This document shows, piece after piece, positions 35,661 through 57,466 of a DNA stretch of 64,000 bases (position 1 is the first letter of the stretch; each line of letters begins with the position of its first letter). The DNA comes from Lichina pygmaea (Eukaryota > Ascomycota > Lichinomycetes > Lichinales > Lichinaceae). Location of the stretch: positions 2,394,379 to 2,458,378 of the forward strand of contig OY730170.1 of NCBI GenBank assembly GCA_963422465.1. The letters are read 5' to 3'. Under the pieces are notes generated by a model. That model was not told the DNA's origin. It did no database searches and saw only the letters and a program-made list of their open reading frames with translations. Position numbers and translations under genes: made by a program.

Positions 35661-35900
35661 TCAGAACACACAAGCCTGCAGTTCGGCAAGCTGCTCAACA
35701 AGAGTATCCCGCTTGGCCTCATCAACAGCCAAATCCTTGGGAAGGTTATCTTGAGTCATGTTGAGCAACTCCCAAGAAAGCGACACACAGGACTTCCTAC
35801 AACAAGTGCATTCAGCACACTTCAACTTATTGTTGTTGTCAGACATTCGGAAGCAGGGCTTGTGGTTCAAAACACAGAAGTCACACAGAGCAAGTGACAC
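35661..35900 (-). CDS. Antisense Zn(II)2Cys6 ORF in chromovirus A
   Basis: A 79-residue frame on the strand opposite to the element, between the chromodomain and the 3' LTR, starting 113 bp inside the LTR. Cysteine spacing is C-x2-C-x6-C-x11-C-x2-C-x6-C (CDFC at residues 6-9, last C at 38), an exact fit to the fungal GAL4-type binuclear zinc cluster. A leucine-rich stretch follows (LVEQLAELQ), as in dimerising zinc-cluster factors. Homologous to 51092-51412 in B and comparable to 52036-52608 in C. Known families give DNA binding; a role in controlling the element is my inference. Confidence 0.7.
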   Translation of the reverse strand: MSLALCDFCVLNHKPCFRMSDNNNKLKCAECTCCRKSCVSLSWELLNMTQDNLPKDLAVDEAKRDTLVEQLAELQACVF

Positions 35901-36140
35901 AAAGTTATGATCACAGATCTGGGCTGCCAGTTGTTTTCAGTAAGCAGAGGCACGTGATTTGGCAGACATACTCAAGAATTCATCAGGATGATGAATAAAG
36001 GAGAGGAGGGTAGTGTTACAACCCAGGGAATAGAAGCCACTCATTTATAGGCAATCAGGCCGCAGGCCAGGCAAGAGGACATCATGGAAGTCAAGTGACC
36101 AGCCAACAAGGGGTCACGTGACTGTCGAGACACACACAGG

Positions 36141-36286
36141 AGTCTTGACGCAGCATGCATGAAGCATCAAGACAATCTCACCCATCTTGACACAGCATGC
36201 ATGAAGTATCAAGACAATCTCACCAGTCTTGACACAGCATGCATGAAGCATCAAGACAATCTCACCTGTCTTGATGCAGGATACAT
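36141..36286 (+). repeat. 42-bp hairpin minisatellite in LTR A
   Basis: Three full 42-bp units (36141-36182, 36183-36224, 36225-36266) and a partial fourth. Each unit is itself an inverted repeat: TCTTGA and TCAAGA flank a core containing GCATGCATG. It lies upstream of the TATA-like box, where regulatory sites would be expected. Confidence 0.85.
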
Positions 36287-36300
36287 AACATAGTGGGACT

Positions 36301-36326
36301 GTCAAGACAATCTTGATTGTCTTGAC
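36301..36326. repeat. Perfect palindrome in LTR A
   Basis: Two 12-nt arms (GTCAAGACAATC and its complement) separated by TT. They share the TCTTGA/TCAAGA core with the neighbouring minisatellite units and lie about 10 bp before the TATA-like box. Confidence 0.8.
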
Positions 36327-36335
36327 AGGCCAGCA

Positions 36336-36343
36336 CTATATAG
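36336..36343 (+). promoter_or_regulatory. TATA-like box of LTR A
   Basis: CTATATAG, conserved in the same context (GCACTATATAGTC) in LTR E at 63384-63391 and in both LTRs of B (50805-50812 and the matching site near 62344-62351, minus strand). It lies just downstream of the tandem hairpins in each. Confidence 0.5.
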
Positions 36344-36689
36344 TCTGGTGATAGTTCTCTTATGGAACAATTGTCTTCAACTTATGTTGTGATCCAGACA
36401 ACTAGATCTACTTCAATACAATCCTTTTGTACAAAGCTATTGATCAGGTGTCACCACCACCACATTCCACCAAACCCCTTCGCACTCCTTGACACTCCTC
36501 TCCTGCGAGAACCAACCCACCTTCCACCTCTCGCCCTAATTCTATACTCGGATAGGACAGTACAGTACAGACCGCAACAAGAAGAAATATTAGAAGATTT
36601 TTTGTGAGGATTAAACCAGACTTCTACTGCATAGCTGAGAAGTGATCTCAGTATTGCAGTGTAGACAAGTTTAGCAGAGAGAACAGGTA

Positions 36690-39110
36690 GACTCTATTTA
36701 GAAAAGGTAGTTCTGGAAAGTGCTGAGAAAAACTTGGAAGCTTTCTGTAATATGATTTTCTGGTGTTTTTTCCAGAGAAGCTTGGAATCATAGTGTAGTC
36801 CCAGAATACACACTTCTTCCTTTGGCTGTAGTACTACTTCTCCAAGTCTTAGACTAAGCTGAATATTATCTGTTCTTCTTCTAGAAAAATAGAGAAGTTT
36901 ATACTTTTTAGGTGCAAACTTCATTCCATGTTTTCTTGCCTAGTCTAAACACTTGGAGTGAGTAGACTTCAGCTTCAGGAGATTGTTTTTAAGAGAAGAG
37001 GAAAATGCCAGAAGATTTGTATTATCTGCAAAGCCCAGAGTTGATACATCTTTCTCTGGTATATAAACAATATTATAAAGATCTGAAATATAGAAAAGAA
37101 ATAAAATAGGAGAGAGAGGTGAATCTTGGGGAACTCCACAGTGTACTGGAAAAAGAGAAGACTCTGAATCATCAAAAGCAAGAGAGGTTTTTCCTTGGGT
37201 AGTGAAAGAAAAGATCTAGTTAACAAACCAGCTGGGAATTTCTTTTCTTTCCAGGATTTTCTTGAGAATTTCTGGCAGAACTCTATCATAAACTTTTCAG
37301 ATATCCAGAGAAAGAAGACTGGCTACTATTTCTTCCTTCCAGACTTTTTTAACTTGGGAAGTGAGTAGAAATAGTGCAGACTCAGTTGATCTTTCTTTTC
37401 TGAAGTCTATCTGGATTTCTGGTAGTAGGTTTTCTTTCTCTGCCAGTTCACTTAGCTTTATGGCTGCCAGAGCTTCCATCAGCTTCCCAATTATGTTGAG
37501 AAGTGCTATTGGCCTCCAAGCTTTGGTATAGCAATAGGATCCTTTGCTAGGCTTTCTCAAGCATATTGTTCTGGCTGCTTTGTATCTGTCAGGGAAATAT
37601 TCTAGCTTCCAGCAGGCTTCCAGAACTTTGGCTATCTTTTCATTGAAAGAGTCTCCTACTGCCTTTAGAAATCCATTGGGTAGAGTGTCTTTCCCAGAAG
37701 CTGTAAAAGGTTTTTTCTTTTTCAGAATATTGTGGATATCTTCTTTGGAGATTTCCTGAGATAGCTGGTGTTGTTGGTGGTTGGCTGGCTGGTCCTGGGA
37801 TTCTGGTACTGGCTGGAGAGGTAGAGGGAAGAACTGGGTTTTGAATACTTCTACCTTTTCTGTGAAAGTTCTAGCAGTTTCTCCATCTTGCTTTGTGAGC
37901 TCTGGAACAATTGGAAGTTCTGGTGGTTTGCCAGCTTTTTCTTTACCCCACTTGGCTATTTTCCAGTGCTTTTGTGTTTCAGCCAGGTTCTGGAGTTGTT
38001 CTCTGAATGTCTTTCTTTTCACATTCTTGATCAGGTGTTTCTTTTCCTTTATTACCTTTTCAAGTTTGTAGACTGGTTCTAGGTTTTGGAAGACTTTTCT
38101 CCTTAGTTTTCTTTCCTCTTTAATTTTCTCTTTAATCTCTTGGTTCCACCAGGGAACAGTGTACTTTGAGTCTCTCAGAGGTCTTGTTGTCTTGTCAGCC
38201 AGTTCTTGAAGAGCTTTGTCCAGGTTCTCTAGATAGTTGTCCACTTCCTCTCTGTTAAGTAGTGGTGGAATAGGGGGAAGATTCTTAGCTTCTTTCTTGA
38301 CTTGGTCCAGATCTAGTGTTCTCCAGTTTCTTTGGTGGGTTCTGGCTTTCTTTAGTGTTTCCAGACTTAGGATTGTCTAAACTGGTCTATGGTCTAAACC
38401 TGTGTAGAAGTCTAGGTTAATCTGGGAAGAAATAAAGAAATTAAGAAGTGATATAAAAATAAAAACTAAGTTAATAGCAGAGAAGGGAGACTCTGCCAGT
38501 GTTCTTGCTCTTGTTGGTGTGAAAGATGCTATTGCCAGCTCTAGTCCTTGATTATCTGTGAGTTCTTTGAACTTAGTAGCTAGTTCAGAGTAGAGTTGGA
38601 AGAATTTTGACTAGAATAGGTAGTGGAGGTTTGAGTCAGTCAGAAGAATATATTCTCCTTCTTTCTCCAGTGCCTGGGCTAGTACATCCAGTAGAGCTTC
38701 TGCTGATACTCTGTAGTTTTCCTGGCTTGTAGGTGTGAAGTACAGGTTATGTACTCACAACACTTTTGCTTGCACTCTTATCTCCAGTGATGTTAAATCC
38801 TCACTCCAGAACACAGAGATTATAGCTGACATCTGTATTCTTCTGTTGATTAGAACCAGAGTTCTCCCTAACACTTGGTCTTGAAGAGGGTAAAAGACTG
38901 AGGAGACTGTTGAGGTACTTGTTTCCTGGTATAGATTTCTCTAAGGTTCTTGAAGTGTAATCAGATCCACTTCTTGGAGTCTGGGGTTAGCTAGTAGAAG
39001 ATCTTGACATGTCTGGCTTTTCTGCACATTATACTGGAGAAGGTTGAGAGTTGGTGTACTCATCAAACCTCTGGGTTAGAATCCACAAGTATCTCAAAAG
39101 AGTTTTGTTT
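36690..39110 (-). pseudogene. LINE Y ORF2: endonuclease, linker and RT
   Basis: The longest open piece is 37297-38244 (315 aa): linker from MDNYLENLDKALQELADKTT, then LPNGFLKAVG, PIALLNIIGKLMEA, QIDFRKERSTESALF and SLDI. Further RT and post-RT motifs lie at 36694-37290 (HCGVPQDSPLSPILF-like, ALGFADNTN-like, KEEVCILGLHYDSKL). The endonuclease lies at 38250-39080. Several stops and changes break the frame. Confidence 0.75.
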
Positions 39111-40464
39111 TGGAAGATTAGTGGTAGTCTTCAGGTTTTGCAGAGGTTACTTGAAAGCTAAGTCTTGCACTTGATCTGGTTCTCACCAGCTCTCCCTGTT
39201 TTCTTTTCTTCCTATTCTCTTTATCAGATAGATTAGAGCTACTTCCAGTATTAGTGGTCTAGTTTGGAGAGAAGATAAAAGTGGAAGAGATGTTTTCTGG
39301 AGTGGTGTATCTTCCAGGTCTGGTGAGCCAGGATTCTCTAGCTTTCTGTGTAGCCTCCTGCTTTTTAGGGCAGACTTTTTCCCAAGCAGAGTGCTTCCCT
39401 CCACAGTTAGCACATTTGGAGACTAGCTTTTCTTGAAGGATTGGGTAATCTCTTCTGCCATATTTTCCTCCATATGCCAGGCACTGTGCTTGAGCTTGGC
39501 AGGTTCTTGCCTGGTGTCCAAAATTTGAGTATTTGTAGTATTAAACTACTGATGTATCCAGAAGTGCTGGCTTCACTTCATAGATCATGTGGCTAAGTAC
39601 AACTTCTCTCTTGATTAGTAGATTAGCTTGCTCAGGTGTTGCAAGATCTATGTGCAGAGATATCACAGATTTCTTAAGAAGTTTGGACTTTCTGGTCCAG
39701 TAGGTTCTCAGGATTTTGACCTGGTTTTCCATACCAGAGTTTTGTCTGAAGATAGTCTTAGTTATCTCTTCCAGATTGTCTGGATTGAAGTCCTTTTTTT
39801 GAACTTGATAAACTATGACTAGGAAGATTCTGGAAGAGATCTTGGCTTCTTCAGAGAACACTGCAGAGATCCAGTCTTTGTTCTACTCTAGTTAAGTCTT
39901 GGCTGAGGGAGATTCCAGAGAGATGATAATATCACCAGAAGAGAGCTTTCTGACTGCTCTGATATCTTTCTGGCAAGGTGTAGGGACTTTGTTCTTGATA
40001 GTCTACACAAGCTGGGAAGGTGTTCTGTTTCCTGTCTGTGCAGTTAGAACTCCAGGTCTGATAGTAATCTTACTGAAGATTCTCTGGAGAACTGGAATTT
40101 CCTGAACTGTAGCTTTCTGGACTGCTTGAGTATAGAAAAGATTAGATACTGGTGTTTGCGTATTCTTCTTAATTCTGTCCAGTCTCTGGAGAACTTTCTA
40201 GATCTCTTGTCCAGTGGTGGAAGGTGTAGCTGTGTAGCTTGCTAGCTGAGTGGTGATTTTCTTCCATGCTGCCTGTACCTTTGGGGGAGCTTTAGACTGG
40301 TTTAGCCAGACTTCAACAATCTGGGATACTGGCAGTGTGTTTTCTCCAGCTTGTTGATCTGGTGTTAGTAGAGAGGTATCTTGTTGGCTTGTCTCTGTGG
40401 GAATAGATAAAGAAGAGCTGGATTGGATGTTAGAAGATCTGGGAGCCAGTATAGAGATTAGTGC
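39110..40464 (-). pseudogene. LINE Y ORF1 (gag-like zinc-knuckle protein), decayed
   Basis: Minus-strand pieces: KVQAAWKKITTQLASY (40198-40494), then the conserved SRIFLVIVYQVQKKDFNPDN segment (39541-39861), and knuckles including KCANCGGKHSAWEKVC near 39400-39420. The order matches the Z ORF1 at 41152-42495. The N-terminus continues at 47525 beyond the inserted Z LINE. Confidence 0.65.
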
Positions 40465-41151
40465 AAAAAACTCTTCCCAGTACCACATCATCAAAGGACC
40501 ATCACTTTTGACAATCAGCGGATTTTGTCATAAGTCCTGGAAACCAGTTGTGAAGCTTGCTGAAACCACCCACTTCCCAAGGGTGAAAACCCATCACTTT
40601 TCTGAATCAGGCCTATTGGTCAAAAGTGGTGATCCCAGAACTTATGTTTTCTTACTTTAACTACCAACCACCCAGCCACAACAAGAGTGAGAGAGACCAG
40701 AGGTATCCTGAAGAACTGGGCAAAGCTCTACCTACCTTGGAACAATCAGCCCTGAGACCAAAACTCAGGATTAAGCCAGTACTTCCAGTCTATCAGAGAT
40801 AAAATACCAAACCTCTCCTAAAAGTGAGAAACATCTACCAACAAGAAGATCAGAGCTTCCAGGATAAGAGGAATAGTTTAGAGCTTACCTCTAGTGCTGG
40901 TAGAGTTGAAAAACTCTAGGAAAGCTCAGGCAGAGGGTGTAGTCCCTAGCTTGAGTCAATACAACCAGATTTCCCTAGAGTCTAGTTAGAAAAGACTGCC
41001 CAGGAAAGTACAGTCTTGGGGAGTGGTCCCAGGATTGTGCAACTACTACTAGGAACCAGGTGACCTTTTGTGAACAACTGGAAGAAGTCTGCAAAAGAGC
41101 CTCACCAATCCCAGCCAAAAAGAACTACTGGAAGACACCTAAAATCACATA
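40465..41151 (+). other. 5'UTR of LINE Z with inverted-repeat structure
   Basis: A 687-bp leader without a convincing ORF. ATCACTTTTGACAATC (40501-40516) can pair with ATTGGTCAAAAGTGGTGAT (40614-40632), enclosing GGTGAAAACCCATCAC. The same blocks recur at the 5' ends of families X and Y despite overall divergence. Confidence 0.6.
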
Positions 41152-42495
41152 ATGTCAAAGAAAAAACCAGAGAAAAAGAAAGAAAACCAGTCTTCTCCAA
41201 GCTCCCAGCAACCCCCAGTGGCCAACTCTCTGACAGACCAATCCCAGACTCAAGAAAAAAAAGAAGAGAAGGGGCTGACACCTCCCCAGCTAGTGGAAGA
41301 ATAGCTTATCCACATAAAAACTCCCCAACACATCAAAAAAGTATAGGATAGTATTCTGTCCAAAGTGGCAGAAGCTCTGGACAAAGATGTCCCCACTCAC
41401 TCACCTAACTCCCAGAGTCTCCAGAAGATACTTGAGAGACTGGACAGTATTGAGAAACAAGTCCAAAAACAAAACACCAAGCCAACATATGCCCAGGCAG
41501 CCCAGAAAACAGTAGGACAGGGAATCCTTGTTCCAACCAGAATCCACAGTGAAATCACTATCAGACCTGGAACTCAGACTGGCCAGCTAGCAAACAGAAC
41601 ACCAGCCCAGCTTATAGCAACTCTCAAGAAGAAAACACCACTCTCCTACCAAAAAGAAATAAGAGCAGCCAGAAAACTACCCTCAGAAGATATTATAATC
41701 TCTCTGGAAACTTCTCAAGCCAAGACTCAGCTAGAGGAAAACAAGGACTGGATCCCAGCTGTCTTTACAGCAGAGGCCAAGATATCACCCAGAATCTTGC
41801 TAGTGCTACTCCATAGAGTGCAGACAAAAGACTTCAAGCCAGAGAACCTGGAGGAAACAAAAAAGTAATCTTCTCCCGAAACTCTGGGATAGAAAGTAAG
41901 GTCAATATCCTAAGAACCTACTAGTTCAGAAAAGCCAAACTTCTCCAGAAGCCAGTCACATCTCTACATCTGGATCTAGCCACCCCAGAGCAAGCAAACC
42001 TCCTAATTAAGAAAGGAGTAGTTCTAGGATATACTCTACATAAGGTAGAACCAGCCCTGCTAGCAACATCAGTCACCCAGTACTACAAATATGCTAGGTT
42101 TAGACACCAAGCGCACACTTGCCAAGCCCAGGCCCAGTGTACAGCCTGTGGAGGAAAGTATGCCAGAAGAGACTGCCAGACTTCTCCAGAAACTCTAACA
42201 TCAAAATATGCAAACTGCAAGGGAAACCACCCAGCCTGGTCAAAGTCCTGCCAGAAAAAACAGGAAGCAATCCAGAAAGTAAGAGAGGTATGGCTAGCAA
42301 GACCAGGGAGGTACACAACAGCTCCCAGACTAGCTCTACCTCAGACTCCCTCAATACAAGAAAAAAGGCCAAGTCTACAAGACAGACAAGAGGCTAAGAA
42401 AAGAAAACAAGGGGAAGTACTAAGAGTATACTCAAGCTCAAGACTGAACATTCAGCTCCCCACTTTCCCACTTGCACAGAACTCAGAGTTCTAAA
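41152..42495 (+). pseudogene. LINE Z ORF1 (RNA-binding, zinc knuckles)
   Basis: Starts MSKKKPEKKKENQ at 41152, a basic N-terminus. It continues with a coiled-coil-like LQKILERLDSIEKQVQKQ (open piece 41365-41868), the conserved SPRILLVLLHRVQTKDFKPEN segment, and the knuckles CQAQAQCTACGGKYARRDC and ANCKGNHPAWSKSC (about 42120-42250), then a basic tail. In-frame stops are few and include TAG at tryptophan positions. It would coat LINE RNA. Confidence 0.75.
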
Positions 42496-42554
42496 TCAAC
42501 ATAGTTAGAAAAAAAGCTACTGAGATCTTGGAAGACTCTAGGTAAGAGGATTAA

Positions 42555-43456
42555 TAAGTTACTCCACACTTAACCTTCTCCAGTACAATGTCCAGAAAAG
42601 CCAGACATACCAAGAACTTCTACTGGCAAACCCTAGACTACAGGAAGTGAACATCATCACTCTGCAAGAACTCTAGAAAAACCTCTACCAAGAATTAAGT
42701 ATCTCTACAATATTCTCAGCCTTCTACTCTTTACAAAGCCAGGAGCTAGGGAAAACACTTGTTCTTGTTAACAGAAGAATTTTGTGGTTATCTATAAGTC
42801 TAATTTTCTGGAGTAAAGATCTAGTCTTCTTGGAGATAAGAGTTCAAACAAAGTTATTCTGGATCCACAATCTCTATTTCACACCCACAAGCCAAAGGAA
42901 CTATAGAGAGTCAGCTCAGACTCTTCTAGACCTACTGGAACAAGCTATCTAAAAAAAGGGTGAATATATTCTCCTGACAGACTCAAATCTCCACCACCCA
43001 AATTAGTCAAAGTCAAGCCAGCTATACTCAGAACTGGCCTTATCCTTCAAGGACCTAACAGACAAATGGGGACTAGAGCTAGCAATAGCTCCCTACACAC
43101 CAACAAGAGCAAGAACTCTTCTAGAACCAACTTCATCAGCAATTGATCTTTCTTTTATTTCAAGTTCTTTACTCAATTCTCTTATTTACTCACAAATTAA
43201 CATGAGATTCCACACAGAGTCAGACCACAGACCAGTGCACACAATTCTCAGTCTGGAGACTCCAAGAAAAACCAGAACAGACAAAAAGAACTGGAGAACT
43301 CTGGATGCTAGTCAAGCAAAACAAGAAGCTGATAACCTACCACCTATTCCACCTCTAACTAGCAAGAAAGAAGTGGATGATTACCTGGAAAGACTGGACA
43401 AAACTCTCCAAGAAATTGCAAACAAGACAACCCAACCTTGCAAAGAGTCCAGGTAT
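42555..43456 (+). pseudogene. LINE Z ORF2, endonuclease domain
   Basis: APE-type endonuclease: NLLQYNVQKSQ, VNIITLQEL (metal-binding E), LLTDSNLHHPN (D and N), APYTPTRARTLLEP, SSAIDLSFISSS (D) and SDHRPVHTILSLETPRK (catalytic H). Three TAG or TAA codons replace tryptophan or glutamine. It would nick target DNA for reverse transcription. It is interrupted after CKESR by the X LINE and resumes at 44963. Confidence 0.78.
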
Positions 43457-44947
43457 TTTTTTATTTTTTTATTTGATTCTTACACTGGTAGTAGCTTTAC
43501 AGCCATGCAGATCTTCTAGCTAATAGTGAACTCCTTCAGAAAACCTTTGAAGGGATAAAAACTGAAGGCAGGGTGTGACTAGGGAATGTAACAAAAGGAA
43601 TCTTGAAGTTTCTGGTAAGAGAAGAGAATCTAGGTATTGGATTGGGAATAGTGGAGTTTGAAAGCTAGATTAAACTGGTTTAGTCTTTTCAAAGACATAA
43701 ACCAGTACAAGAACTTCTGTAGTAGCTCTGGGTTTGAAATAATAGTGGTGAAGTCTTGGGGATTAAAAGAGACTTGTTGTCTTTGTCTTGAATAAAGAGA
43801 GCATGAAGAGGTGATATGTTTTGCAGTTTCTTCTGCTTGGCCACAAACACATAGTGGGGTAGGGAAGTCAGGAGCTCCAGCTCTGAAAAGAAAACTTGCC
43901 AGACCAATTCTTCCAGTCCTGATTTGCAGTAGCAGACTTGCCTCAGCTTTCTGTAACTCTTTGTAGAGCTTCAGATTGTTTTTGTGTGGCTTTTGACAGA
44001 AAGTCTGCCAGCCTGGATAGCTTCTTCTTTTCTTCTCTTCCCATTGGTCTTCCCACTCTTTAGTAAAGAGCTTTTGTAGTTCTTTCTTTGAACTAGCCTG
44101 GTTAGTAGTTATTTGACTTAACCAAGTGAATTTCCACTTAGGAGAGATAGTTGAGGATTCCTTTAAAGGTTTCTTCAAGAGAGAGGCATAGCTGGAAATA
44201 GTGGAAAAGATACTGTCAAGAAAGTATTTGAGAGGGGAGTTTTGAATAGAAGAAAGAAAACAGGCAGTGCGAAATTTAAAGTATAGGTCTAGAGGTAGAA
44301 GAAAAAGCTCACTCTCTAATAGAAAAGAAGGAGTGGCTTTGAAGGCACCCCCAATAAGTCTTAGGCATCTGTTTTGAAATGAAACAAGAGAAGAGATATT
44401 GGAGGATTTTCTTAGAGGGTTAAACCAGATCCCCACTGCATAGCTCAGTAGAGATCTCAGTATAGCAGTGTACACCAGACGTGGTGTGTGAACTGGAAAG
44501 CCCCAAGTAGAATAGGAAGTTCTAGAAAGAGAAGAGAGTGCTTTCTGTGCTTTTTGAAGAATAATCCTCTGGTGTTTGTGCCAGTGGAGCTTTGCATCTA
44601 GGTACACTCCAAGTACTCACACTTCTTCTTTTGGTTTGAGAATCACATTCCCCAGTCTGAGCTTGAGCTGAAGATTGTCTGATCTTCTTCTGGAAAAATG
44701 AAGTATTTCATATTTCTCAGGTGAGAAGACCATTCTATGTCTTGCAGCCCAGGATAGACATTTGTGGTGTGTGTTCTTTAACTTCAGAAGGTTACTTTTC
44801 AAGGAGTGACCAAAAGCAAGCAGATTTGTATCATCTGCAAACCCCAGGGCAGATACACCAGAAGAGGGAGTATGCACAGTCTCATGCAATTCAGAAATGT
44901 AGAATAGAAAAAGAATAGGGGATAATGGAGAATCTTGAGAAACTCCA
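43457..44947 (-). mobile_element. LINE family X, copy 4 (5'-truncated)
   Basis: A minus-strand X LINE in the Z endonuclease/RT linker, flanked by AAAGAGTCCAGGTAT (43442-43456 and 44948-44962). Tail at 43457-43520; the truncated 5' end lies in the RT at GVPQ/SQDSPLSPILF. Very similar to the X copy at 28382-31361. Confidence 0.9.
43630..44947 (-). CDS. LINE X ORF2 fragment: RT palm, post-RT and zinc knuckle
   Basis: Two open pieces in one frame (44617-44947, then 43630-44607), separated by a TGA at the same CGA-to-TGA site as in the copy ending at 30201, so the two copies probably share a recent parent with that mutation. Motifs: SPLSPILF, ALGFADDTN, VYLDAKLHWHKH, LRSLLSYAVGIWFNP and the knuckle CVCGQAEETAKHITSSC. 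Upstream codons of the 162-aa frame beginning at 45105 are antisense Z sequence. Confidence 0.82.
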
Positions 44948-44962
44948 AAAGAGTCCAGGTAT

Positions 44963-47280
44963 GCAGTACCATGGTGGAACCAGGAAATCAAAGAAATAAT
45001 CCAGGAGGAAAGAAAAGCAAGAAGAAAAGTACTCCAAGGCCAAGAGGAAACCACCAGACTAGAGGAGATAACTAAAAAGAAAAAGAGTCTGATCAGACAA
45101 GCCAAAAGAAAGACATTCAGAACACATCTGCACCAGCTAGCAAAAACTCAGGACTACTGGAGAATTGCCAAATAGGGAAAAGAAAAAGCTGGCAAAGTTC
45201 CTGACCTACCAATAGTCCCAGAACTTATAGGACAACAAGGACAGGTGGCAAAGTCTTTTGAAGAGAAAACAGAAGCTTTCAGGACTCAATTCTTCTCTCT
45301 TCCCCTACAGTCAGAGCCAGAGGAACATGACCTGCCAGAAGAAATCCAGGAATGGCAACTATCCCAAGAAGTCTCCAAGGAAGAAGTACAAGAGGTTCTA
45401 AAAAAGAAAAAATCTCTCTCAGCACCAGGCCAAGATACTCTACCAAATAGATTTCTAAGAGTACTGGAAGACTCTTTCAACAAAAGAATTGCTAAGGTTT
45501 TGGAGACTTACTGGAGACTGGAATACTTCCCAAACAGGTACAAGTCAGCCAAGACAATCTGTCTAAGAAAACCTGGCAAGAGATTCTACTGTCAAGCAAA
45601 AGTATAGCAACCTATAGCTCTCCTGAATACAATTAGGAAGCTAATAGAAGCTATTGCAGCTGCAAGACTAAGTGAGCTAGCTAAGAAAGAAAATCTCTTA
45701 CCAGAAATCCAGATAGGATTCAGAAAAGAAAGATCAACAGAATCAGCACTTTTTCTTCTGACCTCCCAGGTAGAAAAGATCTGGAAAGAAGGAATAGTTG
45801 CTAGTCTTCTCTCTCTAGACATCTCTGGAGTCTATAACAGAGTCTTGCCAGAAGTTCTCAGAAAGATCCTGATTAAGAGAAAGATTCCTAAGTGGTTTGT
45901 ATCCTGGATCTCTTCTTTCACTACTTCACATACTACCTCTCTGGTGTTTGATGACTCAGAATCCCTCCAGTTCCCTATATACTGTGAAGTCTCTCAAGGA
46001 TCACCTTTCTCTTCTATTCTATTTCTTTTCTATATCTCAGAACTGCACAATACTGTACACACCCCTGAGAAAGAAGTTTTAGCACTTGGTTTTGCAGATA
46101 ACACTAATCTTCTTGCATTCTCCTTTTCCTTGAAAAGCAACCTTCTCAAGTTGAAGTCTACACATTCCAAATGTCAGAACTGGGTAAGAAAACATGGTAT
46201 GAAGTTTGTATCTGAAAAGTATGAACTTCTCTATTTTTCTAGAAGAAGAAGAGATAATCTTCAGCTCAGTCTAAGACTTAGAGAAGTGGTACTTCAACTA
46301 AAAGAAGAAATATGTATCTTGGGACTTTACTTTGACTCAAAACTTATCTGGAAAAAACACTAAAAAACCATGTCACAGAAAGTCTCCAAATATTTCTCAG
46401 CTTTATCCAGAACAACCTACTCTACTTGGAGACTACCAGTCCTAACAGTACATCATGTCTACACTACTATACTAAGATCTCTTCTTAGCTATGTAGTAGA
46501 AGTCTGGTTCAATCCCCAAAAGAAACTCTCTAATATTATTTTATTATCTACTTTCCAAAATAAATGTATAAGAACTATAGAAGATGTCTTTAAAGCCACT
46601 CCTATTTTCCTACTTGAATCAGAACTATTTCTACCCTCTCTAGACTTATACTTCAAGCTGAGAACAGCATGTTTTCTTTTATCTTTCTATTCAAACACAT
46701 TACCCAACTCTTGTTCTACACTTCTCTACAAACTACACAGTCAAATTTCTCTTTATGTTTCTTCTCTCAGAACTACACCAAAGTCTCTGACAACTATTTC
46801 TCTAAACTGGAGAACAGTCTGGCTGGAACAACTAACTACTAACCAAGACTTCTCAAAGAAAAGTCTACAGGAGGTTTTCTACAAAGGATAGGAAGCCAGA
46901 TGGCAGGTAAGCAGAGGAAATTGTTCTGCTATTTGGGACATGTTCACCAGAAGGCCACAGAAGAAAAACCTCAATATCTTCAAAGATTTGAGAAAAGCTG
47001 AGTGTAGTCTATCTCTTCAAATTCTGTTAGCAAGAATAGGACTGGCCAGTTTTCTTTTCAGAGCAAATGTTCCAGACTTTAACTCCTCTCTATACATCTG
47101 TGGTTTTGGAGAAGAAACAGTCTAACACATCACTTTTTTCTGTAATAAATTTTCAAACTAAAAACAACAAGTCCAATTCCCTCTACAAGATTTCCTATCT
47201 ATCTTATTCTCCTCCAAGCTACTTCCTAAACTTCTTTTCTGGTTTATATTTTTGAAAAGACTTGACCAGTTCAACCTAGC
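44963..47280 (+). pseudogene. LINE Z ORF2: linker, RT, post-RT and C-terminus
   Basis: Open pieces 45245-45607, 45845-46363, 46370-46891 and 46940-47125 cover the linker, LPNRFLRVLE, SLDISGVYNRVLP, FTTSHTTSLVFDDSES, VSQGSPFSSILF, ALGFADNTN (second catalytic D changed to N), KEEICILGLYFDSKL, ILRSLLSYVVEVWFNP and the knuckle region YICGFGEETV. The loss of one catalytic aspartate and several stops show it is dead. Confidence 0.78.
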
Positions 47281-47524
47281 CCACCAACTCTCTTTCTAAG
47301 CTCTACCAAGCTAACTGTTTGTTTTAACAAATAGCTACATGTACAAATTTCCTTAGCTACTGCATATTTCGCAAGATTTTCTCTAGTCTCTCCCAAGCTC
47401 CAGTTTTTATTTCTCCAAAGGTTTTCTGGAGAAACAAACATGTACCTAGAAGTTCTGCATGGCTCTACACCTAAATCAGTGTAAGAATAAAATAAAAATA
47501 AAAATAAAAAATAGAGATTAGTGC

Positions 47525-48325
47525 TCTAGAGTTGTATTGGGAAGGACTAGGTTTTTTCTCTTTTTAAGCCATAGCTCTGGATTTCCAGTAGTGATACTTT
47601 TAGAGAGTTGAGAGAGTTGAGAGAAAGAAGAGTACTCTGACTTCCCAGCAGTTGTCAGAAGCTAGTCACCTGACTAAGCAGGCAGGTGCAGCCACACTTA
47701 TCTATCACTAGTACAGAGATGTCAGGCACTAAGCCCAGACATAGTAGTCTTTTGGCTCAGTTCCACTTTAGTCTACTCTGTACAGCACCACATGACAGCA
47801 GTAGTGATCTAGCCCTGAGTCCAGACCTCAGAGCTTGACTTTTCTGGGCAGCTTCTTCCTTCTAAGCTGTGGGTTAGGTCTGGGAGTATTCACCTAGACT
47901 AGAGACCAGACCTCCTATCTAGACTTTCCTTGAATTCTTAGATTCTGCCAGCCAAGAGTAGAGCTCAAGTTATTCCACTTTTCCACTCTCTGTTTTCCTC
48001 TTGAACTGGAAGTACTTACTCAATCCTGGGACCACATCCCAAGACTGAGTGTTCCTAGGTAATTGGGGTCTGTCTCCAGTTCTCCAGAAAACTACTGGCC
48101 TCTCTCTCTCTTGTTGTTGGTAGTCTGTTGCTTGTTGAAGTTAAAGATCATGGAGTCTGGGATCACAACTCTTGACAAACAGGTTGAGTTTTCCAAAGTG
48201 ATGGGTTTTCACCTTAAGGTTTTGGTGGTTTCAGAGTGGCACTTGGCTGGTTTTCAGGACTTCTGACAAAATCCGGTGATTGTCAGAAGTGATGGTCCTT
48301 GGATGTAGTTTTACTGGGAAGAGAT
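47525..48325 (-). other. LINE Y ORF1 N-terminus and 5'UTR
   Basis: The upstream part of the Y LINE beyond the inserted Z element: a serine-rich coding remnant (SQLSQLSKSITTGNPELWL, near 47550-47640), then a leader carrying, on the minus strand, CCAAGGACCATCACTTCTG and GGTGAAAACCCATCAC. The 5' end is near 48325. Interrupted by the solo LTR 47653-47797. Confidence 0.6.
47653..47797 (+). repeat. 145-bp solo LTR of the mini-element family
   Basis: From TGTCAGAAGC to CATGACA, flanked by the 5-bp duplication GCAGT (47648-47652 and 47798-47802). Same LTR as in the mini element at 17982-18664, about 30 bp shorter near its start. Probably left after LTR-LTR recombination. Confidence 0.88.
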
Positions 48326-48436
48326 TTATATTGTATGTAGAGGGTGTTGATAGATCTAGACTGGTAGTAGTGATCTGTGTAGGGGGGGTGACTGGTTACT
48401 ACTCTATCTCTATCTCTTTCTTTTGTAACTTGTTGA

Positions 48437-49260
48437 CTACCACTGATAAATTATACAGAATAAGATTAGTCTTTTTAAATACTGAGAGGATTGTTGCTGA
48501 CTACAGTACCTTATCTTAGATTGAACCAAGAGCTGCAAGAAATTCCAACTTATTAAAATCAGTACACTCTCTACAAGTAGCTGCATCCATAGTCTCAGTA
48601 TGCCAATACTTGTAAGGCTGGAAAACAACTACATCCAGTGGCTGCAGTAGGTGTGTTGTGTGTGGAGGGAGGTGGAACAGTATGATGTTGTTAGTTTCAC
48701 AGAATGTGAGGAACTTAAACATAAAGTAGGACCCATAGCTATCTATAAGAAGTAATTAATAAACTCTAAGCTATGTCTTGCAGCTGAACTTGTGGAAGTG
48801 CTTGATCTACTCAAGACTTATCTAGTTGTTCAAGAACCTACTATCTGACACTGCAAGAGGAGTATTACTTGCAATACCTGTATAACCAGTCTAGTCTTCC
48901 TGGTGGTTTTTGCCTTGCAAGATAACTATCAGTGGAATTACTTTTCCACCACCACTGATAGCCTCAACAACAGTAACAAGCTCCTGGTTACTGATACTTC
49001 TGATGTACGCCTGTTGGTGGGTAGTCTTGGTGATGATCTTTTTGTTTCTTCCTATTCCCATCTGAAAGTCTGACTTGTCCATATTCCAGCAGTCACCCGG
49101 TTGGATACCCTTTCCAAGGTATGTTGCATTAAAGTCGCTATACCATGCTGATATTGAGGAGGCATTGTTGGCAACCTTTCTCTTCAGGTCTGTTGCTTTC
49201 TGTGTCTGTACAGAGTATGCTGGATGACGTTCCAGAAACCTCTTGACCTATAGAACACCA
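48437..49260 (-). pseudogene. pogo/Fot1-like DDE transposase, decayed
   Basis: Minus-strand order: the CENP-B-type helix region VKRFLERHPAYSVQTQKA (about 49250), then NMDKSDFQMGIGRNKK with the first catalytic D (about 49070), VEAISGGGKVIPLIVILQGK, LLLIDSYGSY with the second D (about 48745; DGHGSH in relatives), then LPPHTTHLLQPLDVVVFQPY with the third D (about 48630). Several in-frame TAG codons are present. It would cut and paste the element in intact relatives. Confidence 0.8.
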
Positions 49261-49544
49261 ACAGTAGGTGGGGGGTTGTCTCCAGTATAGCCAGGATCAT
49301 ATTGGCAGTGTTGCAAAGTATTGGTGGCCTCACACATATTCCTATCTTGTCAAGTTGATCAATGTACTAACAGACAGTACACTCCTCAGTGACAGAGAAC
49401 TTCCTGTTGATAGGAATAATACTGTGGCAAGAGGGGGTGCTATTAAGGTAGTTTCAGAGTTGATGTACAGAGATGTTGAATTCTTTAGCCAGTTTTGGGA
49501 CTGTGAACTTCTGACATGCTGGTATACTATCTATAGTATTCTGG

Positions 49545-49993
49545 AGGGGGTGGCATAGTGTAGCGGGAAGCTGGTGAGAGTTTCCCACTACGTGGCACCC
49601 ATGACCCAGAACTAGTGGTGTCAGGCCTGGAGAACCTGACTAAACTAGTTGTCAGTTTGAATCTGACCCACCCCACATTCTGCCACAAAAACCCCCGAGA
49701 TTCATAGAACTTGTCTAAGATGTACTCCTCGCAAGATGTATGAAAACCCCCAAGAAATAGCTCACCCAATATCTGTCAAGATCCACAAAACCCTTATTAC
49801 TGTGGTTTTCCTATTTCCCTACAGGGTTTGGGGTTTTCCCACAGTACGTACACTACAAACCACAGGGTGTACAGTAAATGTGTGAGGTCCCTGAGTCAAG
49901 TCTACCAGAGACAAAAATTCTTCAAGAAGTTCTGCATGGCTTAACAGCTGAATCAGTGTAAGAATCAAATCAAAATCAAATCAAAATCAAAAA
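49545..49993 (+). mobile_element. tRNA-derived SINE, copy 3
   Basis: 449 bp, flanked by the perfect 12-bp duplication ATAGTATTCTGG (49533-49544 and 49994-50005). It retains more CpGs than copy 2. A-box-like TGGCATAGTG near its start, B-box-like AGTTTGAATCTGACC about 105 bp later, tail CAGTGTAAGAATCAAATC then (AAAATCAAATC)n. Confidence 0.88.
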
Positions 49994-50571
49994 ATAGTAT
50001 TCTGGATTTAAGTCTTAGTCTTAGTGGACAATTTAGCTATGATTTGGAGAAGTTATGGTAGTTTGAAGATTGTAGACTTGATCATGACAAAAACATCATG
50101 TTCTGGTGATATGTTGTGTCCTGGTGATAGACATCTTTACAAAGTAGAGGTGTCCCAACCAAAGCTTGCGAAAAGAGTGGGTGGTATGTAGGTATCTCCT
50201 CAGCACAGGTACTCTGTACAGCACCGCACGACAGCTGGTGTCCTATACATTAGAGGCTGAAACTGTTAAGGGCCAGTCCATGTTCACACAGAACATGCGT
50301 GGTCCGCACATCTGGGTAAGGAGGGCAGGGACTCAATAGATGAATAGCAAGGTGGGTAACTCTCTTGCTATTGTCTTTGGTATTGTGTGTGTCCAGTCTG
50401 GAGAGCTATTCTCCCCGGCTATCTGGGTTCTCTTATATACAGGAGTCTGAGGGGGGGGGTCTGCCCCAAGGAGTATCAGCTTTCTGCATAGACAAGGTGG
50501 TCAAGGAGCACTCTCCTCATCCACCTCTGCCACTTTGGACAAGGTGGTCAAGCTGGTTACATCTTGTCCAC

Positions 50572-51054
50572 TGTTGCGGTCTGTACTGTACTGTCCTATC
50601 TGAGTATAGGATTAGGGTGAGATGCGGAAGGTGGGTTGGTTCTCGCAGGAGAGGAGTGTCAAGGAGTGTGAAGGGGTTTGGTGGAATGTGGTAGTGATGA
50701 CATCTGATCAGTGGCTTCGTACAAGATTGTATTGAAGTAGATCTAGTTGTCTAGATCACAACATGAGTTGAAGATGATTGTTCCATAAGGGAACTATCGC
50801 CAGACTATATAGTGCTCAGTCTGTGAGCTCAGTGAGCTCTGCTCACTTTGCTCACTTGTTCATGCATACTGCAGCAAGCTGGGCAAGCTCTGCTCACTTT
50901 GCTCACTGTTCATGCATGCTGCGGCAAGCACCCCCTGGTCAGTCTCACCGGTCACGTGACTGTTTCCTGTGTTATACTGCCTGGTACTTCTGTCCAGTAT
51001 CCTGTCTGCTGCTTTCTGTGAGTATAAAGACTGTGTTCCTCCTGAGTCATAACA
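50572..51054 (-). repeat. 3' LTR of chromovirus B
   Basis: A 483-bp LTR, TGTT...AACA on both strands. It holds GTGAGC/GCTCAC hairpin repeats at about 50820-50925 and a TATA-like CTATATAG at 50805-50812. Slightly shorter than its 518-bp partner, mostly through repeat number. Confidence 0.9.
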
Positions 51055-51091
51055 CTATCCTCCTCTCCATCTTTCATCATCTTGATGAAAC

Positions 51092-51412
51092 TTGGTCATG
51101 TCTCTAAAGTCATGTGCAACTGTTAGCCAAACTCAGCTTGCTACTCAAATCCACAATCAGAGTTTTGTCTTGTGTACACTCTGCAACTTTTGTGTTCTCC
51201 GTGGTTGTCTGTGCTTCCAGATGCTGGGGGAAGATGATAAGTTGAAATGTGCTGTGTGCACTCAGCGCGGGAGGTCTTGTGTCTCTGTGTCCTGGGAATC
51301 TCTGAACATATTCCGGGACAACCTTTGTGAGGATGTGGCCACTGAAGAAGCAACACACAATGCACTCTTCAAACAACTTGCTGTAGTGCAAGTTTGTCTG
51401 TCTCGGAAGTGA
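51092..51412 (+). CDS. Antisense Zn(II)2Cys6 ORF in chromovirus B
   Basis: A 106-residue frame reading opposite to B, starting 37 bp inside its 3' LTR. Cysteine spacing C-x2-C-x6-C-x11-C-x2-C-x6-C (CNFC, then CAVC and the final C before VSVSWE) fits the GAL4-type zinc cluster. SCVSVSWESLN and QLAVVQ align with SCVSLSWELLN and QLAELQ of the ORF in A. Extra cysteines flank the cluster. The 3' LTR lies immediately upstream and could drive it. Function inferred from the family only. Confidence 0.7.
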   Translation: MVMSLKSCATVSQTQLATQIHNQSFVLCTLCNFCVLRGCLCFQMLGEDDKLKCAVCTQRGRSCVSVSWESLNIFRDNLCEDVATEEATHNALFKQLAVVQVCLSRK

Positions 51413-51548
51413 AAGGTGTTGGAAGGCGCTGAGGTCTGTGCAAGACAGAAGCTTCAGTGTCTGGTGAAAGAGATAGAGTCAGATGGTGAGGATTTGACTT
51501 GATCAGTCATTGACATGTCCCTCCTGCAGGCTGAGCTGTTCAGTCCTG

Positions 51549-51974
51549 TGTTAAAGGCCGGGCCGGGTTCACACAGAAACCGGTACAGTCTGTTGCTTCG
51601 CAGGGTGGATTCTAGACAGGGACTTGGTAGAGAAATAGACAGGTGGAGTAACTCTCCTGTGCTATTGTCTCAGTACGATGGGTTCGTATTGTTTGTTCAG
51701 CCTGGAGAGCTAATCCCTCCGGGCCCTTTGGGGGTCTTTATACAGATGCTCCAAGGGGGGGGGTCTCCTCGAGGGGTATCATCCTTTTGTGTGGACGAGC
51801 TCCTCGCTTAGCTCCTGCTCGTCCGGTGGACGAGCTCCTCGCTTAGCTCCTGCTTGTCCACTGGACAAGCTCCTCGCTTAGCTCTTGCTTGTCCACCGGA
51901 TCAGTCAGATGTTGTTCCGTATGACTAACACTCCTCCCTCGCTTACCTGGGCTGTTCCGGCCTAGGCCTTAACA
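51549..51974 (-). repeat. 3' LTR of chromovirus C
   Basis: A 426-bp LTR from TGTTAAAGGCC to GGCCTTAACA (inverted ends). It contains three ~35-bp hairpin units (51793-51894) built on GGACGAGC and GCTCGTCC, plus a G9 run at 51753-51761. Confidence 0.9.
51793..51894. repeat. Hairpin minisatellite in LTR C (3 units)
   Basis: Units 51793-51824, 51828-51859 and 51863-51894. Each begins GGAC(G/A)AGCTCC and ends GCT(C/T)GTCC, so each can fold into an 8-bp stem. Units are separated by short CCGG- or CCACTGG-like spacers. Four units occur in the partial LTR at 57244-57385, so copy number varies between the two ends of one element. Confidence 0.85.
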
Positions 51975-52035
51975 CTATCCCCTCCCTCCAAGGGTTCTGT
52001 CCCCAGATCCTTTTTGTTCCTGCTCCTCTTTTGTC

Positions 52036-52608
52036 ATGAACCAAAGCCAGACAACTCAAACTCGTCGTCGCAGTTTTCTCTCTTGTTGTATTGGCAAAAT
52101 AGGCAAGGAATCGAAAATCGCATGCGGTGCTTGTTGTTGTGACCACGCCAAGTGTGTCATGAGCTCCGCATCATCTTTTTGTTGTCGGTGTGTTGAGAAG
52201 GGTCATCACTGTGACCTTCATCTCTCGGAATCAGAATGGAAGAAGATGGAACTTGAGTGTGAGCAGCTTGAGGCTCAGCTACAGGAGACTGATGACCAAT
52301 TGTCAAAGTTGCTTCCCCGGCAGATCTGCCTCCGCTGGCAGCTGGGTCATCTCTCACAGAAGGAGGCTGATGCCATCTGTTGTGAGCTGTCAGCCATCAA
52401 GGATCAAGAGTCTCTTGATGCTCAGGAACAAGAGGCCCTCCACGTTATCCGCGAACAGGAGGCCTGTCAGGCTGCTGCTCCACTGTCCTTTGAGGACGTC
52501 TTCTCTTCAGAGGCTTTAGCTTCTCTCAAGCTGTTGTCTCCGTCAGACCTGGTCACTGCGGGTTTGCTTGGTGGTAATCCACCAGCTTCTGGTTCATCAC
52601 AGAGCTGA
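52036..52608 (+). CDS. Antisense Zn(II)2Cys6 coiled-coil ORF in chromovirus C
   Basis: A 190-residue frame on the strand opposite to C, starting 61 bp inside its 3' LTR and overlapping the end of the chromodomain frame tail to tail by about 56 bp. Residues 32-61 show C-x2-C-x6-C-x8-C-x2-C-x6-C (CGAC ... CCRC ... C), an exact zinc-cluster pattern. Next is a long charged helical region (KKMELECEQLEAQLQETDDQ) likely to form a coiled coil, then an acidic, aspartate/leucine-containing C-terminus (SFEDVFSSEALASLKLL) that could be an activation region. The layout resembles small fungal zinc-cluster regulators. It is larger than the A and B versions. Role inferred. Confidence 0.75.
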   Translation: MNQSQTTQTRRRSFLSCCIGKIGKESKIACGACCCDHAKCVMSSASSFCCRCVEKGHHCDLHLSESEWKKMELECEQLEAQLQETDDQLSKLLPRQICLRWQLGHLSQKEADAICCELSAIKDQESLDAQEQEALHVIREQEACQAAAPLSFEDVFSSEALASLKLLSPSDLVTAGLLGGNPPASGSSQS

Positions 52609-52860
52609 AGTTCTTGGTTGGTTCCCACAAATTCTCCTCTTCGTCAAATCCTAACCACTTCACCAGGTACTCAGTTTTCTGTCTGTTTCTTCGACTATCC
52701 AGGATTCTTTCAACATCGTACTCTTCTTCGTCATCCTCGAAGTTCCATTCTGTCTTGATCTCTGCGTCGCTGGGTGCTGGTTCAAGCAGCGAGACGTGGA
52801 ATACTCAGTGTATCCTTGCTTTTCGTGGCAGTCTCAGTCGATAGTTGACCTTCCCAGTGC
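52553..52860 (-). pseudogene. Chromodomain region of chromovirus C
   Basis: Minus-strand frame with EYDVERILDSRRNRQKTEYL, then VKWLGFDEEENLWEP and a C-terminal NQKLVDYHQANPQ ending at 52553. The aromatic and acidic positions of a chromodomain are present. It lies at the end of integrase, as expected for chromoviruses. Confidence 0.82.
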
Positions 52861-52899
52861 GCTTCTTGATTTCGAATAGTCTGATTCGTACGTGGTCCA

Positions 52900-53968
52900 G
52901 CTTTTTGCTCAGTCACTTCAAGTGCAGGTTTTTTGTTGATAGGTAGACCTTATCCCCTCTTTCCAGGGTTGGTCCCTTCAACCTTTTATCGTGTAATCAG
53001 CGGGCGGTAGTGTTCTGGGCATGGTTGATCGTTGTTTTCATCATCTTGTGCATAGCAGCGAGTTTGCTAACATCAACAACGTTGCCTCCTGCTGTTGCCT
53101 GCCATCAGGGGTTTCTTCTGTAGTTCGCAAAGAACGGTGTTGTCCCTGTCACGCTGTGTTGCTGGTTGTTGTACACAAACTGGGCTATTGGTAGCAGTTC
53201 CACCCAGTTGTCCTGCTGGTGGTTGACATAGTGTCGTAGATACTGCTCCATTGTCTGGTTTGTCCGCTCAGTTTGTCTGTCAGTTTGTGGGTGGTAGACT
53301 GTTGACATCCTTGTATCAATGCCAAGTTGCCTTGTCCATGTGTTCCAGAATTTCGAGGTGAAGAGTTTGTCTTGATCTGAGATTATTGTCTTTGGTAGCC
53401 CTCAGTGGCTTACCAGCTCTTTGAGTAGGATGCTCACAAGTTTGTTCGCGGTTCCTGACTCTTTCCACAGGACCAGGTGGGTGTATTTGGTGAGCTTGTC
53501 AACAACCACCAAAATGCTATTGTATACCACCTTTGTTGCTGGGTCTGTTGACTTTGGCAACTTGACCACAAAATCCATCGTGATAGTTTCCCATGGTGCC
53601 TTGGGTAGGTCCATTTGCTGTGCCTGCCTGTAGGGCTTATGCCTTGATGGTTTGTTCTTCGCACACTGTTCGCAGTTGCGGATGAACTCTGTCACCTTGC
53701 GCTTCATTCTGTTGAAGTGGTAGTTCCTTTGGATTTTCTCCAAGGTTTTATCTTGCCTGGGGTGTCTGTGCAAAGGCCTGTCATGGTGCCTCTGGATCAC
53801 CTCCTCTTGTGCTCTTTCTGGCATGATTTCCTTTTTGTTTGCCGTCTTGTGGCCAAGGGTAAGGAGTGGACTCTTTGTTTCTGTTGTTGCCAGTTGGGGT
53901 TGGGCATAGACCAGGGTTTGTCCTTTTGTCGCTAGGATTGGGTGTTCCTCTGTTGTTTTCTCATCCAT
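52900..53968 (-). pseudogene. Integrase region of chromovirus C
   Basis: Motifs on the minus strand: RHHDRPLHRHPRQDKTLEKI and CEQCAKNKPSRH (zinc finger, 53640-53800), MDFVVKLPKS and VVVDKLTKYTHLV (53470-53580), and VYHPQTDRQTERTNQ (53255-53300). This gives the D and E regions of the DDE core. Confidence 0.8.
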
Positions 53969-54008
53969 CAGGTCTGGTCACCTGCTGAGAGTGTCCGCTT
54001 GAGCATTT

Positions 54009-55260
54009 TCAGTGCTCTTCCGGTAGAGGATTTGGAAGTTGTATGATGCTAACAACTCTGCCCATCAAACTTGTCGTCAGTTTAGCTTCTTTGTTGTTGT
54101 GAAGTAAGCTAAGTTCTTGTGGTCTGAGTACACGTCTACCGTGTATTTTGCCTCTTCCAAGTAAGGCCTCCATTCTTGGAATGTGTTGACGATTGCTAGC
54201 AATTCTTTGTCGTGAACATTGTACCTCAGTTCTGGGCCAGAGAACTTTCTTGATTGATACGCGACAGGGTGTAAGTGGTTGTCGGCGTCTGGTTGACACA
54301 AGCAGGATCCCAATGCTTGGTCCGAGGCATCAGTTTCCAGAATGATCCTCTTCTTGAGATCAAATGATGCCAAAATAGGTGCGGAGATGAATTTATCCTT
54401 CAACTCCTGGAAGGCCGCTTGTTGGCTCTCCCCCCACCTGAAAGATTTGTTCTTTCTGGTTAACTCTGTCAAGGCTGCTGCTGTTCTTGAGTAGTCCTTG
54501 ATGAATTGTCAGTAGAAGTTTGCAAATTCTAGGAAGGATTGTACTTCTTTGAGGTTTTTGGGTGTTGGCCAGTCTTGTACTGCTGCTGTCTTTGTGTCAT
54601 CCATTTGGATTCCTTCTGTTGTCAGGATCAACCCCAAATATTCCACTTCTTTTGTGTGGAAAACACTTTTATCCAGGCGTAACCTTATTCCTGCTCTCTG
54701 GAGTGCATGTAGGATCTTCTTGACATGCTGTTTATGCTCCTCCAAGGTTCCATTGGTGTATACCAAGACATCATCAATATAAGCGGTGACAAATATGTCC
54801 AGGTATTGTCGGAGGACGGTGTTAATAAGTGATTGGAATGTCACCGGTGCATTCGTAAGACTGAATGGCATCACAGTATACTTGTAGTGCCTGTACCTCA
54901 TACGAAAGGCTGTCTTCCATTCTTCACTGTCTTTCATCCTAACCAGGTTGAAAGCACCTTGAATGTTGAACTTGGTAAACTATTTGGCTCCTTGGATCCA
55001 GTCTTGGATTTCTGATATCAATGGCAGTGGGTAGTGGTTTTTCACTGTAATCGTATTTAGCTGCCGATAATCAACACACAGTTGAAGTTTGCTGTCTTTC
55101 TTTGGCACAAACAATATTGGGTATCCAGCCGGTGATGTTGAAGGTCTTATGAACCCTTTCACTAGGTTCTTGTCCAGGTAGTCTCTCAGGGCCTCAAGCT
55201 CTTTTGCTGACAGAGTGTAGATAGAGCTGTGTGTGGGTTTTTTTCTGTCTTCCAGTGGAA
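54009..55260 (-). pseudogene. Reverse transcriptase and RNase H region of chromovirus C
   Basis: Motifs: [20 protein letters not shown] (about 55060), MPFSLTNAPVTFQSLIN (about 54850), TAYIDDVLVYTNG with the catalytic YIDD (about 54770), and VEYLGLILTTEGIQ. RNase H: LETDASDQALGSCLCQPD, HPVAYQSRKF, LLAIVNTFQEWRPYL and SDHKNLAYF (54080-54360). Confidence 0.83.
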
Positions 55261-56056: not shown

Positions 56057-56246
56057 TCATCAGCAATGTCTCTGACCTGTATGATGCTGAGGGTATCATT
56101 GACCTATCATGACGCTTGCGTCTCCCCTATTTCTGATAGGGTTGTGTCCTGTTGTCGAAGGACAGGTTTGTCGGAGACTGGTGGTGGCTGGGCTTCCTTG
56201 TCGTCAACCTGTTCCTCCATATAGCTGGTTGTGTCAAACTCAGAGA

Positions 56247-57234: not shown

Positions 57235-57461
57235 CCTTTTGCGTGGACGAGCTCCTCGCTTAGCTCCTGCTTGTCCACCGGACGAGCTCCTCGCTTAGCT
57301 CCTGCTCGTCCACCGGACGAGCTCCTCGCTTAGCTCCTGCTCGTCCACCGGACAAGCTCCTCGCTTAGCTCTTGCTCGTCCACCGGATTGGTCAGATGTT
57401 GTTCCGTATGACTAACACTCCTCCCTCGCTTACCTGGGCTGTTCCGGCCTAGGCCTTAACA
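57224..57461 (-). repeat. 5' LTR of chromovirus C (partial)
   Basis: About 238 bp matching the outer part of the 51549-51974 LTR, including four hairpin units (57244-57385) and the terminal GGCCTTAACA. It passes directly into gag sequence at a short stretch (GGGGTATCATCC) also present in the other LTR. Confidence 0.85.
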
Positions 57462-57466
57462 TCCTG

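Follow-up and report, generated by a model that had tools for sequence, protein, structure and literature searches.

A gene on the antisense strand of a fungal Gypsy element has already been published, namely brtn of Boty, whose description is reportedly owed to Zhao et al. in 2011 (Virology 417:248). The citing texts, as far as the available passages go, present brtn as the antisense gene of the Boty-like Gypsy elements of Botrytis cinerea (PMC7264820, PMC8365987, PMC4227169, PMC5987419), and a Monilinia transcript matches both a truncated Pol and BRTN (PMC5987419). Besides, plant elements carry antisense open reading frames (ORFs) known as aORF-3R (gene23 of Grande and those of RIRE2, Retand and PvRetro13), and human T-cell leukemia virus type 1 (HTLV-1) encodes HBZ, a transcription regulator translated from an antisense transcript of the 3' long terminal repeat (LTR), which represses transcription in the sense direction and may stimulate its own (PMC3185765). 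Here we describe three retrotransposons, A, B and C, within 64,000 nucleotides (nt) of the ascomycete Lichina pygmaea (contig OY730170.1, positions 2,394,379 to 2,458,378; hereafter the window), each of which carries, between pol and the 3' LTR and on the opposite strand, a gene for a Zn(II)2Cys6-like protein.

The likeness to brtn lies in a fungal Gypsy element with a chromodomain in its gag-pol (PMC4227169) and an additional antisense gene; as to the differences, the comparison is one of descriptions only, and the passages available from the citing texts name no zinc cluster, selection test or array in U3 (the unique 3' region of the LTR). With the plant aORF-3R, the genes described here share the position and orientation between pol and the 3' LTR, and also a possible nuclear or DNA-binding role (PMC7264820, PMC11963269, both in the parts available), but the domain is another one (TRP28 in Retand, in whose main text, as accessible, the word zinc is absent) and the arrays of the fungal elements are dyads located within U3. 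HBZ, in turn, is a basic leucine zipper protein of a human retrovirus that acts via partner factors, so that it offers a functional analogy only (PMC3185765, in part). No zinc-cluster antisense gene of fungal elements surfaced in our literature searches, an absence that weighs little, as some of those searches also missed brtn, and no antisense element gene appears in the available portions of PMC3207942, PMC2864245, PMC11540331 and PMC3158057. Given the plant antisense ORFs, brtn and HBZ, the kind of gene is therefore already known, and its zinc-cluster form is a new variant.

The original prediction, made from the letters of the window alone, placed three antisense ORFs with GAL4-type cysteine spacing in the three elements, and they are present at the positions that it gave. 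Their extent was right for C, which holds a complete open gene, the only such gene among the window copies, whereas the ORFs of A and B are fragments of a 166-codon gene. The comparison of genome copies yields a full frame of 166 codons in A and B, 190 in C and 176 in a fourth family, D, which was found via the related database protein P0069 and occupies 61 genome places at 85-99% identity, 53 of them stop-free. The proteins of A and B are 72% identical and form one protein family, and that of C groups with that of D (61%). The genome searched comprises 32.47 Mb in 8 contigs, and for each protein 150 matches were scored, out of 277 first-look candidates for C, 494 for B and 490 for A, the counts being lower bounds. 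Copies were collected by their match to the antisense protein, with elements lacking the gene falling outside the sample, and those of A, B and C were mostly chosen for open frames; the stop-free counts are accordingly not population frequencies. Three mis-typed regions (L037, L041 and L107) were dropped, as were, for lack of a canonical stop, L082 and the window copy of family B and also the window C gene where it was matched under D, and duplicates were removed from C (66 to 62) and B (41 to 40); for A, 20 genome copies were aligned in frame with the window copy (n=21). The ORF is thus found across the genome copies of A, B and C, and distinct analysed copies with no internal stop number 15/21 in A (window copy counted), 6/40 in B, 46/62 in C and 16/20 in D.

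The gene has a fixed place in the element. In most copies, 44 nt (A), 43 nt (B), 61 nt (C) or 52 nt (D) separate its ATG from the inner 3' LTR edge, values that correct the 37-113 bp first proposed for A, B and C, and an LTR-edge motif stands at the distance of the family, within 2 nt, in 136 of the 143 analysed copies (19/21 A, 38/40 B, 59/62 C and 20/20 D). Because of this proximity, the antisense leader corresponds, on the other strand, to the sequence immediately preceding the 3' LTR, the expected site of a polypurine tract. At the other end, the antisense tail commonly overlaps the end of pol, by 59 nt in A (13/20) and B (19/39), 164 nt in C (28/60) and 83 nt in D (8/20), and some decayed copies end before the usual overlap. 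The pol end on the opposite strand was read in 12 copies and retained for 133 of 141 in the comparison (59/60 C, 36/40 B, 20/21 A and 18/20 D). Toward the antisense gene, a TATA motif is conserved in A and B (Table 1), and none occurs at the corresponding place in the C and D copies.

The antisense frame is clearly under purifying selection. Its ratio of nonsynonymous to synonymous substitution rates (dN/dS) is 0.20 between A and B and 0.28 between C and D (840 and 1240 pairs, respectively, which are not independent), falling to 0.12 (766/840 pairs usable) and 0.22 when the last 40 codon columns are left out, and the corresponding values for pol ends, read in their own frame, are 0.17 and 0.16. 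Four of the five control frames lie at 0.95-1.70. The fifth, sense frame 1, shows 0.23 and 0.39, has its third positions in common with the antisense frame and contains a median of 4-7.5 stops; sense frame 2, although open in A, has ratios near 1.6. None of 2000 neutral simulations was as low as observed (one A-B and one C-D pair), and a stop-free antisense frame appeared in 0-2 of 5000 base shuffles (one copy per family). Within families the antisense ratios are higher (0.38-0.60), as expected if copies decay after insertion. An element-encoded gene conserved in frame, with dN/dS below 1, as had been proposed, is consequently supported both by the genome copies and by these ratios.

The antisense protein carries a cluster of six cysteines. 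In the six frames of the window, the pattern C-x2-C-x6-C-x5-12-C-x2-C-x6-8-C has three matches only, all in the antisense genes, and in 30 dinucleotide shuffles of the window it was never found (mean 0, maximum 0), which, together with the selection on the frame, agrees with the original prediction that chance is unlikely to account for them. The cysteines are invariant in the 13 chosen A/B copies of one alignment (A1) and in the 14 chosen C/D copies of another (A2), and each of them is retained in 88-100% of the copies. The least retained sites are those of arginine (65-71%, vs 89-93% over all residues), and 535 of the 637 non-arginine cells at these sites differ by one CG-to-TG or CG-to-CA change (A 47/55, B 124/140, C 283/350, D 81/92), for which reason many extra cysteines in the copies of the window seem to stem from decayed arginine codons. 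Such a decay pattern resembles CpG deamination more than classical repeat-induced point mutation.

Regarding the identity of the cluster, the spacing is that of Zn(II)2Cys6 proteins, as predicted, but none of the three window proteins matches Zn_clus (PF00172). The best PF00172 score (16.2 bits) is below the gathering cut-off of 21 bits, 5/14 members of A2 match below the cut-off (best E 0.012), 0/13 of A1 match at E<=1, and two distant homologues reach 11.7 and 10.8 bits, again below it. All Zn_clus matches of the antisense proteins being under the cut-off, formal membership in PF00172 is not claimed. In the PDB, no significant match came from profile searches with A1 or A2 (LEU3 at E 1.5 and HAP1 at E 6.7 being listed for A2), nor any Zn2Cys6 match from a search with window copy P0003, and a match to DUF3716 (PF12511) concerns one B copy, 1/13 of the A1 members (E 0.055, 13.8 vs a cut-off of 22). 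On the side of structure, a long helix after the cluster is predicted at high confidence, and in Foldseek all nine matches of the C model and the best of the A model are Zn2Cys6 DNA-binding domains, with weak scores (PUT3, Pho7, HAP1, PPR1, LEU3 and GAL4). The two predicted models thus point weakly, but fairly specifically, to a Zn2Cys6 DNA-binding domain followed by a long helix. The antisense protein is Zn(II)2Cys6-like, outside formal PF00172 membership: it resembles the GAL4-type factors in the spacing of the cysteines, the predicted helix after the cluster and the weak fold matches, and differs from them in being short, with no room for a middle domain, in being borne by a retrotransposon and in scoring below the Pfam cut-off. 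An exon-by-exon Zn_clus search of the genome itself gave only 27 matches over the cut-off, which is few for a filamentous ascomycete.

Related proteins exist beyond the genome copies. A search with the A/B profile (8000 candidates scored) returned 105 proteins at E<=10. Many are themselves close copies of A or B, but 12 are 56-64% identical along the full length; one shorter match carries the name of a metagenome-assembled Watsoniomyces obsoletus (Lichinomycetes). Among the homologues P0113-P0205 of at least 130 residues, 25/29 have the six-cysteine pattern. In 8 of the 31 sequences read (e.g., P0113), the open frame runs upstream into a stretch like the LTR-edge leader of A, which suggests that these eight also adjoin an LTR. 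Homologue P0183 bears the precomputed label PF27583.1, absent from the Pfam release used. As to a possible common origin of the A/B and C/D antisense proteins, hhalign gives a probability of 1.7% (E 0.029) and BLASTP a best E of 0.004, 0.015 and 0.20 for three pairs, the pol ends of the two groups being 37-43% identical.

Next to the gene, the U3 of each family holds an array of inverted repeats. Each examined window LTR stretch contains more of them than any of 200 shuffles of itself (in C, the inner 182 nt), in counts that tandem repetition inflates. Dyads with 7-nt arms are present in 100% of A (n=21), 88% of B (40), 92% of C (62) and 95% of D copies (20), at a mean of 5.6-9.5 per U3 stretch, compared with 0-0.10 for pol and 0.4-0.7 for U3 after shuffling. 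The arms of A differ from those of B, and GGAC[GA]AG is common to C and D, whose clusters are alike.

U3 and the antisense gene behave as an exchangeable cassette in C and D. In 25 chosen pairs, the antisense genes of C and D are 71-74% identical and pol climbs to 91 and then 97.8%. The nearest pol neighbour of a D copy is a C copy in 16/20 cases at 180-480 nt beyond the gene and in 15/20 at 480-760 nt, vs 0/20 next to the gene (0-180 nt). For 17/20 D copies there is some C copy with a pol distance within 0.04 and an antisense gene 0.27-0.31 apart, the other three being divergent. At pol distances of up to 0.04, the antisense distance has a median of 0.044 (maximum 0.128) in 279 C-C pairs and of 0.280 (minimum 0.265) in 355 C-D pairs, and the smallest clade of the pol tree that holds the 17 D copies also includes 24/60 C copies (support 0.495, which is low). 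With near-identical pol and antisense genes far apart, the same pol is joined to gene and U3 in two versions. In the A-B comparison (25 chosen pairs), identity is high in pol (88-92%) and, for the window copies, in the outer 245 nt of the LTR (92.6%), and lower in U3 and the antisense gene (58-76%) and in the leader (80%). Nearest neighbours show no such exchange for A and B (neighbour in the other family for 1/40 B and 0/20 A), where only the divergence step at U3 and the gene points to it.

What might such a protein do? The reading that we favour, with moderate confidence, is that these chromoviruses carry an LTR-driven, dimeric Zn(II)2Cys6-like regulator acting on its own U3 dyads. The accessory gene between pol and the 3' LTR would be transcribed from the U3 of that LTR, its product of 166-190 residues would dimerize through the long helix, probably a coiled coil, and the dimer, coordinating zinc, would bind the inverted-repeat arrays of the same U3, thereby tuning transcription in both directions, sense and antisense, presumably as an autoregulator of either sign. 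U3 and the gene would then constitute one regulatory cassette, swapped between elements with the same pol. Zn2Cys6 proteins are, as a rule, host transcription factors, and many LTR elements have tandem repeats in U3; this background, together with the lack of a TATA motif toward the gene in C and D, would fit a protein acting in trans on host genes or on host silencing (the anti-silencing factor of the original prediction) instead of on its own LTR, with the arrays as ordinary enhancers for host factors. We regard this as unlikely: U3 and the gene diverge as one block while both flanks are more alike, and C and D combine similar clusters with the same dyad half-site, two observations that mere adjacency also predicts.

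The layout of a cluster plus a long helix is that of GAL4-type DNA-binding domains, to which the fold matches of C and the best one of A also belong, and both points speak against a nucleic-acid or particle accessory (a chaperone or a helper of integration or nuclear import, with the zinc cluster binding RNA or protein). This account, which we consider distinctly unlikely, would suit the weakness of the Foldseek scores and the terms in which antisense proteins of plant elements are discussed (PMC7264820, in part). The same source mentions proposed effects of antisense RNA in other LTR elements, yet that the RNA, by way of double-stranded RNA or antisense control, is the product that matters is very improbable here, given codon-level purifying selection of about the strength of pol in two family pairs. 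Hardly credible is an origin by chance or as a by-product of composition or sense reading: a low ratio in the sense frame that shares third positions and the openness of sense frame 2 in A would fit it, but the former frame contains several stops (median), the latter has ratios near 1.6, and related proteins exist beyond close A and B copies. Chance is rejected by the shuffles for both the cysteine pattern and the open frame, and an RNA-only product or a sense-coded by-product is opposed by the frame controls. Going further than the regulator that we favour, the cassette might confer a sort of immunity, the protein repressing elements with matching U3 dyads and a swap by template switching allowing escape from the resident repressor, as in heteroimmune recombinant phages (old pol with new specificity). 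Family D, with its C-like pol, its other cassette and its mostly stop-free places, would be the escape case. We hold this to be improbable; against it stands the half-site common to C and D, so that a new specificity would need to reside in spacing or arrangement.

The features of the window are collected in Table 1. Taken over the three elements, gag, protease, integrase parts and chromodomain are all found in Pfam, and A, B and C are chromoviruses (Ty3/Gypsy): A has the integrase core and the chromodomain, with a protease that falls short of two of three cut-offs (by 0.1 bit for RVP_2), B the protease and the chromodomain, and C gag, protease and the integrase zinc domain, the chromodomain of its family being matched on one genome copy, L032. 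For the inner half of the A 3' LTR, no second copy was found within the window. In the 3' LTR of C, the part with a partner at the 5' side is limited to 51769-51974; the 5' LTR (57222-57461) matches the U3 half of the 3' LTR only and looks incomplete, as no counterpart of 51549-51768 could be located in 56701-57221. A B-type LTR at 63092-63627, on the strand opposite to element B and with no attached element seen in the window, is possibly a solo LTR. Much of the window is filled by several ORFs of long interspersed nuclear element type with reverse-transcriptase-like residues (13403-15487, 28456-31188 and 43630-46891), which we take to be Tad1-like and which occur as long inverted copies up to 95-98% alike.

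Table 1. Coordinates of the antisense genes, their elements and associated features in the window
Feature	Position	Strand	Remarks
Antisense gene of A, 166 codons	35472..35969	-	stop codon 35469-35471; 3 internal stops in window copy; overlaps end of pol ORF (pol to 35560)
Antisense gene of B	51098..51548	+	2 internal stops; cut at 51548 by element C
Antisense gene of C, 190 codons + stop	52036..52608	+	complete; tail overlaps pol frame in most family copies
Six-cysteine cluster of A	35787..35885	-	C-x2-C-x6-C-x11-C-x2-C-x6-C
Six-cysteine cluster of B	51182..51280	+	
Six-cysteine cluster of C	52123..52212	+	C-x2-C-x6-C-x8-C-x2-C-x6-C
TATA motif toward A antisense gene	36044..36049	-	-80 from ATG; in place in 21/21 A copies
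TATA motif toward B antisense gene	51023..51028	+	-75 from ATG; 38/40 B copies
3' LTR of A	36014..36579	+	inner edge 44 nt from antisense ATG
3' LTR of B	50572..51054	-	other LTR at 62112-62629
3' LTR of C	51549..51974	-	outer end placed by TG...CA and target duplication
Dyad array in U3 of A	36125..36330	.	arms TCAAGAC/GTCTTGA, spacer 10
Dyad array in U3 of B	50815..50930	.	arms GTGAGC/GCTCAC
Dyad array in U3 of C	51793..51896	.	three units, arms GGACGAGC/GCTCGTCC or GGACAAGC/GCTTGTCC
Element C, whole	51549..57461	-	lies within antisense gene of element B; flanked by target duplication TCCTG
Target duplication of element C	51544-51548 and 57462-57466		5 bp, TCCTG

Accessory genes on the antisense strand of LTR elements are nothing new, but the reviews consulted assign them no settled function. 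In the present case, the protein of such a gene has a recognisable transcription-factor layout and is under clear purifying selection, and the gene adjoins family-specific, operator-like arrays that are exchanged together with it. The idea that a retrotransposon regulates itself through its antisense protein thereby becomes directly testable, for which a single protein and a DNA probe of some 100 bp would be enough.

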